NCBI GenBank assembly: GCA_002720865.1
Contig: PBIO01000030.1
Span: 62,001 to 126,000, forward strand
Source of the DNA: Halobacteriovorax sp.
GTDB taxonomy: Bacteria; Bdellovibrionota; Bacteriovoracia; Bacteriovoracales; Bacteriovoracaceae
Reading direction: 5' to 3'
DNA length: 64,000 bases
In this document: positions 30,352 through 33,935 of the stretch, piece by piece
Numbering within the stretch: the stretch's first letter is position 1
Layout of the letters: each line of letters begins with the position of its first letter
Position numbers and translations under genes: made by a program
The notes under the pieces: generated by a model
Databases searched by the model: none
What the model was told of the DNA's origin: nothing
The model's input: only the letters and a program-made list of their open reading frames with translations

Positions 30352-30374
30352 TCAGGGCCGACAGAAGGCCCTGA
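30352..30374. repeat. Perfect 8-bp inverted repeat upstream of the M50 protease gene
   Basis: TCAGGGCC (30352-30359) and GGCCCTGA (30367-30374) flank a seven-base loop. No T-run follows on either strand. It lies after the hydrolase-PilZ gene and before the M50 gene, both on the minus strand, so it may be a weak terminator or a leader hairpin. Confidence 0.5.
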
Positions 30375-30431: not shown

Positions 30432-31664
30432 TTAAGCTGCGTCGCAAAATCCATTAGACTGCCCTGCGACATGCCTAACAAATTCTTCGACCTCTTTGGC
30501 CTTTCCAAAGTGATACCTCTTAAAAATTCCTCTCACAGTATCTTCCCGATCGTCCACGAGAAAGAGATCCATTTCTAAATCATTAAAGGGCAACCTAATT
30601 TTTAAATTCCTATTATTAATCGGTAAGTCTCCCGATAGACTTTTATCGAGCATCACCCCAGCAGTAGAAATATTTACGATATTTACGGGATAAAAATTTC
30701 CACCACCTTCGATAAAAGAAATATCATCAATTTCATATCGAGGCTCAAGTCTTTGAAGCATTACTGGATATTCGGATTTATTAAAAATCTTTACCCCTGT
30801 TGTTCCATTGATGGGAATACCGGCCAAAAACTTTTTATAAAGCTTATTTACCAATTTTTTATTTTCATAAGGCGCAAGATGATCTGTATTGCTTATTATT
30901 CCAAAAGTACTATTTTCGCAAAGCCTCGCAACAGAAAAGCATTCGGCTGGAGTTGTAAAATTATCGTACTCCCCCACTAATACTAATGTTTCACAAGTTG
31001 GTCCGGTCGGAAGCTCATGGAGGTCGAGAAGTCTTCTAGTATTGATTTCATACCGAACCAGATCTGCCGCCTCTAATTTAAGCATATTCTTATACAGGCC
31101 TTTTTGAAGAAGCTCGGCACCCTTGATCTCATGTCTTCTATAAAAGTTTAAAAGATTTAGAACTACCCCCGCACTAAATCTCTCCATCTTTCCTTCGTTT
31201 AAAGAAGTGAAGCTCTCTTCAAGTAAGAGTCTAACTGATTCCCTAACTTCCGGAGTTGTTCCCCCTAAAATCAGCTTATCCGTTCGACTGGGATACTTTG
31301 AAGCGAAGTGAAATCCAATAGCAGAGCCATAAGAGAGTGCTATCGGAGTTACTTTTTCTACCCCTACTTGATCTAGAAAGCCGCATAAAATATCTGCTAA
31401 CTCTTCAAAGCTTAAGTTATCCCCAAGATCATCATTCCCACCCTGCCCTGGAAGATCCACCAAAAGAACTGGGTGAACATCACTTAGTAATTCAACATCC
31501 TTTTTAAAGGATTTAAATTTTTGAAAGGCTCCTCCTAAAATCAAAACAGGATTTTTATGAGCTGTTTTGGGTCTTGAAAAGCTTAAATATTGAACAAGTC
31601 TTCCATTAACTTCCACACAAAGAGGTGGTCTGTTAAAAGAGTCCATTGAAACGAGTGGTTTCAT
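30432..31664 (-). CDS. Alpha/beta-hydrolase fused to a C-terminal PilZ domain
   Basis: Protein of 410 residues, no signal peptide. Residues 20-285 form an alpha/beta-hydrolase: a strand PVLILGGAF, the LVDLPGQGG loop near 68-75, a nucleophile elbow ALSYG with Ser111 (Ala replaces the first Gly of GxSxG), Asp234 in VGEYDNFT and His262 in NTDHLAP, so the catalytic triad looks complete. Residues about 300-395 fit PilZ: RLEPR at 305-309 (RxxxR) and NISTAG at 331-336 ([DN]xSxxG), the two c-di-GMP contact motifs. The enzyme's activity may thus be controlled by c-di-GMP. Substrate unknown. GGGG precedes the ATG. Confidence 0.83.
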   Translation of the reverse strand: MKPLVSMDSFNRPPLCVEVNGRLVQYLSFSRPKTAHKNPVLILGGAFQKFKSFKKDVELLSDVHPVLLVDLPGQGGNDDLGDNLSFEELADILCGFLDQVGVEKVTPIALSYGSAIGFHFASKYPSRTDKLILGGTTPEVRESVRLLLEESFTSLNEGKMERFSAGVVLNLLNFYRRHEIKGAELLQKGLYKNMLKLEAADLVRYEINTRRLLDLHELPTGPTCETLVLVGEYDNFTTPAECFSVARLCENSTFGIISNTDHLAPYENKKLVNKLYKKFLAGIPINGTTGVKIFNKSEYPVMLQRLEPRYEIDDISFIEGGGNFYPVNIVNISTAGVMLDKSLSGDLPINNRNLKIRLPFNDLEMDLFLVDDREDTVRGIFKRYHFGKAKEVEEFVRHVAGQSNGFCDAA

Positions 31665-31858: not shown

Positions 31859-32866
31859 ATGCAAATTCTAATACTCTCAATATTTCTCTTCTCAAGTTAT
31901 GCAGTCGCTAACGATGAGTACCTAAGTGAGCGCTTAGAAAGAGAGATTAAAAAAAGTGATTTTTCAACGATTGATGAACTAGCGGAAAACGAAAGAGTGA
32001 TTAGAGACTTATCTCTTAGGGAACAATACTTTAAGGAAAGAGAAAAGCCTTGGTCTCCAATTCCATTTCGAGCCCTACTTATAAAAGGCACACGCCTAGT
32101 GGATGTTAAAACCGGCAAGGTCTATTTTACTTCTTCTGATATGTACGTTTATGCCCAAGAGGAAACAATAGGAAGTCAGATCACTTATATTCTCAATCAA
32201 GAAAAAGAAGCTAAGTATAAAACCTTCACAAAAAACCTTAGATCCATAGAGCGAGATATTGCCCTTTATCCAGAAGTTGATGTTAATAAGTCTTATCTTG
32301 AAAAGCCTAAATATCACTCCACTGATAAGACTTTGGAAATAGAAAGTCATATGACGTTTCATATTGAGACCATGAAGAGTATCTTTTTTGCGGATCTCTA
32401 TAATGGAACAGAGACCCTATCTACGGCTAATCGTTTTCAATCAAAAACTTTCTTTAATTCTGTTTTACCGGTTGATTTTGGATTTTCATTAGGATTCCAA
32501 GAGGGCCTATGGAATGATACTGATAATCAAGTAAAGTGGAGCACTGGATACTTTGGCCCGAGCCTTAGATGGCAATTTGCGAAGTGGGGCAAGGCTAGGT
32601 TTAATACAAAGCTAGGTGTTGAGCGCTCCTTTAGGTTCACGGCTATTGGAACTTCTTCTAGAGCGACATTTTCAAGTTTAACTTACGACTTCGAATTAGA
32701 GGCTGTTTACAACAGTGCAATCGGACCATTTCTCTTTGGCTGGACCCTAAGGAATATGACCTGGCAATTAGAAGATACTGACACTCCCTTAAATATCATT
32801 AATAATAAAAAAGAAATAACATCGACCAGTATTTTCGCTGGTTATAGGGTCGATTTTGATTTTTAA
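31859..32866 (+). CDS. Secreted, probably outer-membrane protein of unknown function
   Basis: The product has 335 residues with a signal peptide to about residue 17 (MQILILSIFLFSSYAVAN). Residues 18-130 are charged and helical; after about 170 the chain is strand-rich with aromatic girdles (FFNSVLPVDFGFSLGFQEGL; LEAVYNSAIGPFLFGWTLRNM), ending in IFAGYRVDFDF with a terminal Phe, as barrel proteins do. No known family. A TACAAT -10-like element lies 11 bases before the ATG and no good ribosome site is seen, so the transcript could have a very short leader. The next gene overlaps by 11 bases. Confidence 0.72.
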   Translation: MQILILSIFLFSSYAVANDEYLSERLEREIKKSDFSTIDELAENERVIRDLSLREQYFKEREKPWSPIPFRALLIKGTRLVDVKTGKVYFTSSDMYVYAQEETIGSQITYILNQEKEAKYKTFTKNLRSIERDIALYPEVDVNKSYLEKPKYHSTDKTLEIESHMTFHIETMKSIFFADLYNGTETLSTANRFQSKTFFNSVLPVDFGFSLGFQEGLWNDTDNQVKWSTGYFGPSLRWQFAKWGKARFNTKLGVERSFRFTAIGTSSRATFSSLTYDFELEAVYNSAIGPFLFGWTLRNMTWQLEDTDTPLNIINNKKEITSTSIFAGYRVDFDF

Positions 32867-33935
32867 AGCAGTATTCTTTTTTATCATCTCCATTAGTGTT
32901 GCCCACGCGGGTAAGGCAGTCGTCATCGTTTTGGAAACCCCTCTTTTTTTAGAAAGAAATACTAAATCTAGAGTTCTACAGCTTGTTAGGAAGAATCAAG
33001 AAGTTTGGATTCACGATAGGGAGTTTGGTCTTTCTCCACTAAAACCCGACTATGAAACCCTAAATGATTCCAATCAATTTTCTGACTTAAAAAAAATTAA
33101 ATACGATATAGGTGAAGTAAGGGCTGGTTTTCTAGAGACTATGGACCGCAATGGCAACACGGCCTATATTAAAAAGAGTCATGTAAAGCTCATTTACAAA
33201 GATGATAGGGAATCACTTACTAATGTGAATCCTTTTATTGAAGATCCAACGGATTATAGACTCCAGGAACCTCTGCCCGATGATTATCCTTTAACGGATC
33301 CAACGAAGATGCGCGCTTTTGCTCAAATGGTATTTGGACCAGCTTATAGATCCCAACATAACTATATTGATCCCGTTAAAAACTCCGACAGAAAATTTAG
33401 AAAAGGACTTGCTGTTGGCTACACCAGAAAAGCGGGCTGGGATCAAAATGATCGTTTTTATTTTGGAGGCTACGGTCACTTTACTGTGGGTGAAACCTCC
33501 CATACTTTCTCAAGTGGCGACTTAGAAACGGCCAGAGAGATTTCCTATCAAATCTCCTTAGGTCCAACATTAAGTTTAGATGTTTTTAGAAGAGAAAGAT
33601 GGAAACTCTCCGTAGGTGGAGGAATAAATCTAAACTGGAACCGACACTTCGTGAAATTAACTTCTGCTGCGATTGGAGAAGAAGAAAGAATCTATGAGGG
33701 GATAAACTTCACTCCCCGATTGTTCTCTAAGTTTCACTGGCGTGATTTCTTTATACCTAATGTTGATTTAGTTTTTGGAATCGATATGCAGTTCAGCTTG
33801 GCACAGGAATATGCCAATAATGCAGCTCCAAATTTCCCAGACCTTTGGACTGATCAAGTAACAACTAGTGATACATTCCGCACCCCAACGGCCGGGGTCA
33901 TGACCTACCTTATTGGCTTTCAATCCAACTATTAA
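32856..33935 (+). CDS. Secreted protein with SH3-like N-terminal part and barrel-like C-terminal part
   Basis: The product has 359 residues. The start is TTG inside the end of the previous gene; only this start yields the signal peptide MIFKAVFFFIISISVAHAG. Residues about 19-120 look like a bacterial SH3-type fold (VVIVLETPLFLERNTKSRVLQLVRKNQEVWIHD ending TAYIKKSHVKLIYK). Residues 150-359 are long alternating strands with aromatic ends (RYFYFGGYGHFTVGE-like; AGVMTYLIGFQSNY), suggesting an outer-membrane barrel. Paired with the upstream gene, the two probably form an envelope unit. Confidence 0.7.
   Translation: MIFKAVFFFIISISVAHAGKAVVIVLETPLFLERNTKSRVLQLVRKNQEVWIHDREFGLSPLKPDYETLNDSNQFSDLKKIKYDIGEVRAGFLETMDRNGNTAYIKKSHVKLIYKDDRESLTNVNPFIEDPTDYRLQEPLPDDYPLTDPTKMRAFAQMVFGPAYRSQHNYIDPVKNSDRKFRKGLAVGYTRKAGWDQNDRFYFGGYGHFTVGETSHTFSSGDLETAREISYQISLGPTLSLDVFRRERWKLSVGGGINLNWNRHFVKLTSAAIGEEERIYEGINFTPRLFSKFHWRDFFIPNVDLVFGIDMQFSLAQEYANNAAPNFPDLWTDQVTTSDTFRTPTAGVMTYLIGFQSNY

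Follow-up and report, generated by a model that had tools for sequence, protein, structure and literature searches.

The stretch analysed here, referred to below as the window, is a 64,000-nucleotide segment of a Halobacteriovorax sp. genome (GCA_002720865.1, contig PBIO01000030.1, positions 62,001 to 126,000), and it contains a gene on the minus strand (30432..31664) whose uninterrupted frame from ATG to stop encodes a 410-amino-acid protein joining an alpha/beta-hydrolase domain to a PilZ domain. An initial annotation of this DNA gave the same coordinates, without stating the strand, and proposed a hydrolase controlled by cyclic diguanylate (c-di-GMP). By computation, we establish both folds, the triad residues, the canonical contact residues in the window's genus, conservation across homologues and the place of the gene. 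The pairing of the two domains in one protein, as annotated, is real according to structure prediction and is also backed by homologues. We propose, giving the proposal about an even chance, that the product is a soluble cytoplasmic alpha/beta-fold serine hydrolase that would be gated by c-di-GMP through its own C-terminal PilZ domain.

Using 28 natural sequences as input, the full-length AlphaFold2 model has a mean predicted local distance difference test score (pLDDT) of 91.7 and a predicted template modelling score (pTM) of 0.90, and consists of two confident domains. Structure prediction had been put forward in the initial annotation as a check for a PilZ fold, and that fold was recovered by AlphaFold2, Foldseek and VIA-align. 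Specifically, residues 282-410 folded alone (pLDDT 80.5) form a six-stranded beta barrel with a C-terminal helix, the PilZ domain itself spanning residues ~305-402 (30459..30752, minus strand), and with this part alone as the query PilZ structures rank first in both Foldseek and VIA-align. The matches include MapZ, MrkH, YcgR, BcsA, Alg44 and VCA0042, with VIA-align Z-scores of up to 12.9 (from about 9 upwards for structures such as MrkH, YcgR, VCA0042 and BcsA). The first 32 VIA-align rows, down to Z 7.9, are PilZ structures only; the first non-PilZ chain appears at Z 5.7, and the lower rows 7lby (6.1) and 5y6h (5.8) are BcsA and YcgR-N entries. The best PDB sequence match of this half is also a PilZ protein, MrkH (profile E 0.007), with the RxxxR and DxSxxG columns aligned, and the domain is kept in each of the 28 full-length copies of the fusion, the window's copy counted in. 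Thus, fold comparison of the predicted models settles the question and confirms that the C-terminal half is a PilZ domain.

Two c-di-GMP contact motifs, RLEPR (RxxxR; residues 305-309, 30738..30752, minus strand) and NISTAG ([DN]xSxxG; residues 331-336, 30657..30674, minus strand), are found exactly at the residues given in the initial annotation. In the alignment with 2rde_B, a complex of VCA0042, the matched part of the model begins at R305 (model residue 24), opposite chain residue 136. In VCA0042, R136 opens the RxxxR motif and the second motif is D162-x-S164-x-x-G167, and on these positions the spacing from first arginine to serine is 28 residues in both proteins. Because canonical motifs occupy VCA0042-like positions and the genome has genes for diguanylate cyclases and for further PilZ proteins, control of the window protein's activity by c-di-GMP appears to be a fair inference.

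The hydrolase domain spans residues ~15-283 (30816..31622, minus strand). Of the two Pfam families that the initial annotation suggested searching, PF00561 is matched clearly (E 1.4e-15, 58.1 bits against a curated cut-off of 25.8), whereas the PilZ family PF07238 is not (see below). The N-terminal 283 residues of the model resemble esterases and other alpha/beta hydrolases in Foldseek and VIA-align with Z-scores of 25-30, the match to 4q3l reaching Z 29.8 over 268 aligned residues. The residues annotated as a catalytic triad are likewise exactly where they had been placed: the putative nucleophile Ser111 in ALSYG (31332..31334), the putative acid Asp234 (30963..30965) and the putative catalytic His262 (30879..30881), all on the minus strand. 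These line up with the Ser, Asp and His regions of the Thermogutta terrifontis esterase 4uhc, so that the triad is at the expected places. Asp234 and His262 are unchanged in all 28 copies, as are R141, N173 and E232, and against the closest relative the ratio of nonsynonymous to synonymous substitution rates (dN/dS) in this half is ~0.02, which indicates strong purifying selection.

By sequence, the 4uhc esterase is also the nearest relative of the hydrolase half with a solved structure (family profile E 7.9e-21). An RhlA-like acyltransferase, ranked second by Foldseek, was rejected on the same profile, which gives E 2.2e-8 for RhlA. No NCBIfam equivalog model attains its cut-off with the fusion protein; the best models are of the PcaD type, PcaD itself (TIGR02427) scoring 58.5 bits against an equivalog cut-off of 255.85. 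On sequence grounds, PcaD-type lactonases and the Thermogutta esterase are the nearest hydrolases, far too distant for naming a substrate. The esterase, lipase or thioesterase activity suggested in the initial annotation therefore stands at the level of fold, but not as a specific function.

Several observations weigh against a c-di-GMP-gated hydrolase. PF07238 scores only 12.6 bits (E 0.18) with the window protein, below its cut-off of 22.5, and only two of the 28 family members match it at E 0.01 or lower. Pfam therefore could not carry the PilZ call and was dropped as proof of the domain. Alignment of the PilZ half to the genome's other PilZ domains with hhalign is also weak (probability 32%). 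Moreover, shuffling produces a motif pair with PilZ-like spacing in ~0.5% of cases for the C-terminal part and in 1.2% for the whole protein, a chance frequency too high for motif co-occurrence to serve as proof; the two motifs by themselves are suggestive, not decisive, and structure was therefore needed. The Pfam score and the shuffle frequencies would favour a C-terminal part that is not PilZ and carries its motifs by chance, an explanation that is very improbable, however, and largely refuted by the structure matches, since PilZ structures head both searches, other folds scoring clearly lower, and the domain is kept in every copy.

Conservation of the ligand contacts raises a different difficulty. 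Position 305 is Arg in 15 copies, Gln in six and Ile in seven, and position 333 is Ser in five and Asn in 23, so that neither R305 (lacking in 13/28) nor S333 is conserved family-wide. In addition, Vibrio cholerae PlzA has both motifs and was negative in a differential radial capillary action of ligand assay (DRaCALA) screen (PMC4624772), and hence possession of both motifs is no proof of binding. One possibility is that the hydrolase is active and that its PilZ domain serves for docking to proteins and not for sensing c-di-GMP, like non-canonical PilZ proteins, of which scaffold-type examples are known (PMC10333796). This would be consistent with the alteration of R305 or S333 in most relatives, but R309 and G336 never vary, and the window's genus retains both strict motifs. 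Loss of the serine is also no proof of lost binding, because in Myxococcus xanthus PixB the motif is without it in both PilZ domains, yet the protein binds c-di-GMP (PMC8316039). We therefore regard a docking module as possible but on the unlikely side. Within the family, the strict [DN]xSxxG motif is found only in the window's genus, and so is its combination with RxxxR, which each of the three species there possesses. The tree places these species together with full support, and the PilZ half of the window protein is 87% and 79% identical to those of its two congeners, with synonymous sites saturated.

The nucleophile is not kept family-wide either: Ser111 is present in 24 of the 28 copies and replaced by Gly in four relatives (L050, L063, L064 and L065). 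Since Asp234, His262, E232, N173 and R141 are invariant even so, the hydrolase fold could act as a receptor or adaptor for a ligand or partner, with hardly any catalysis or none, while the PilZ half integrates c-di-GMP. The hydrolase half also has a structural match to RsbQ, a signalling hydrolase, and this points the same way. We think a receptor of this kind unlikely, however, as Ser, Asp and His are all retained in 24 copies, the window protein included.

Under the preferred reading of a gated hydrolase, c-di-GMP would bind across RLEPR and NISTAG, and binding would move the PilZ domain against the hydrolase so that the active site is opened or closed. A small substrate (an ester, thioester or lactone) would then be hydrolysed in step with the c-di-GMP level. 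Such control should not be assumed for the family as a whole, because 13 of the 28 copies lack R305, 23 have Asn333 and four lack the catalytic Ser. The family may be diversifying; in some relatives catalysis or canonical binding is probably gone, and those without the canonical ligand contacts or nucleophile probably act as binding proteins. Taken further, this could describe a lineage-specific signalling family in a fixed place beside scpAB, in which a hydrolase fold, catalytic or purely a receptor depending on the member, is coupled to PilZ so that one protein reads both a small-molecule signal and c-di-GMP; we consider this broader view rather improbable.

The window's genome encodes two GGDEF proteins with intact GGEEF/GGDEF signatures, 13 HD_5 matches above cut-off and eight further PilZ proteins above cut-off, so the PilZ ligand is likely present in the cell. 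A search of this genome for EAL phosphodiesterases found none, and c-di-GMP degradation would, judging from the gene content, rest on HD-GYP-type enzymes. For comparison, 15 PilZ proteins have been reported in Bdellovibrio bacteriovorus (PMC3271064). It was also observed that one of the two GGDEF proteins, L099 (G000:C11:450174-450650), an open frame of ~304 amino acids, has an apparent FHA region, read by eye, before its GGEEF domain, and in this it resembles the design of Bdellovibrio DgcB, which governs prey invasion (PMC6733907). A role in the predator cycle, raised in the initial annotation, fits the lineage, but no further link to predation was found.

The fusion was traced in the proteins of 129 genomes from the order as well as by a profile search over 369 genomes of the phylum, in which at most four candidates per genome were scored. 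All 28 full-length copies, from 19 of the 129 genomes, belong to the window's family, the named relatives being for the most part Halobacteriovorax metagenome-assembled genomes, and the profile search found no full-length fusion in the remaining 240 genomes from the phylum. When only the C-terminal half is used as a profile, there are hardly any matches beyond the fusion proteins, and hence this type of PilZ is specific to the fusion. Nineteen copies precede an M50 peptidase gene, with scpA, scpB and an rluB-like gene mostly next, and the opposite flank of these loci carries two conserved divergent genes without a Pfam match. In one genus, seven copies share another conserved location with a different set of neighbouring genes, part of which also accompanies an eighth copy (L061). 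Hidden divergent orthologues in non-carriers were rejected, as other, divergently oriented genes are found at the readable loci (for example L078, L079 and L084, from a genus without the fusion). The fusion is inherited within one bacterial family, in which most copies also keep one syntenic place.

PilZ-enzyme fusions affecting catalysis are already established (PMC10333796), and the protein described here is a further variant among BcsA, PixB and a subtilisin-PilZ protein. BcsA (structural match Z up to 12.9) has a C-terminal PilZ domain gating a catalytic domain, as is proposed for the window protein, but is a membrane glycosyltransferase. PixB joins a c-di-GMP-type PilZ to an enzyme in a predatory, social host, but its enzyme has a GNAT acetyltransferase fold and its two PilZ domains lie N-terminal to it (PMC8316039). 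The subtilisin-PilZ protein of the related predator B. bacteriovorus (NP_969350.1) also combines PilZ with a serine hydrolase, in this case an S8 protease and not an alpha/beta-hydrolase fold, and no experimental work on it was found in its source (PMC2605481). MrkH of Klebsiella pneumoniae, which shares the sequence match of the PilZ half, is a transcription activator without an enzyme domain, whereas 4uhc and PcaD-like 3-oxoadipate enol-lactonases are akin to the hydrolase half, lack PilZ and offer no transferable substrate. The initial annotation did not know this domain pair as a described system, and no description of an alpha/beta-hydrolase-PilZ fusion was found in the part of the literature searched, the genomes searched for the fusion being those of this phylum. 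If c-di-GMP does switch the hydrolase, a soluble, easily assayed small-molecule enzyme would join the few PilZ-gated enzymes, and c-di-GMP would gain a direct output in Bdellovibrio-like bacteria, a group in which no output is assigned to many of the PilZ receptors. Relatives that have naturally lost R305, S333 or the catalytic Ser would be ready-made controls.

With regard to the transcript, the sequence GTAGGGGAAACT 5' of the fusion ATG is similar in appearance to a ribosome-binding site, and a promoter-like site upstream of the fusion scores no better than shuffles. On the 3' side lies a terminator-like hairpin (30352..30374, minus strand) with an 8-bp stem, a weak T tract and a fold z-score of -1.7, the terminator-like count being only slightly above shuffles; this is weak evidence that transcription may stop ahead of the M50 peptidase gene. 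Despite the strong synteny, an operon of the two genes is not assumed, given the hairpin and the 112-bp gap between them.

Some further observations concern individual loci. In the copy L045 (G119, contig C69) the open frame lacks a start codon where one is expected and in-frame stops lie within the profile match, and this copy may be broken or mis-assembled. Among the other PilZ proteins of the window's genome, L006 (G000:C19:46070-46258) reads like a GAF and sigma-54-activator (AAA) protein with a PilZ-like domain at its N-terminus, and L004 and L005 have an unusual architecture in which PilZ is joined to GYF-like repeat regions (by eye). Finally, the two divergent genes, at 31859-33935 in the window and at the syntenic loci, have starts that by eye are signal-peptide-like.
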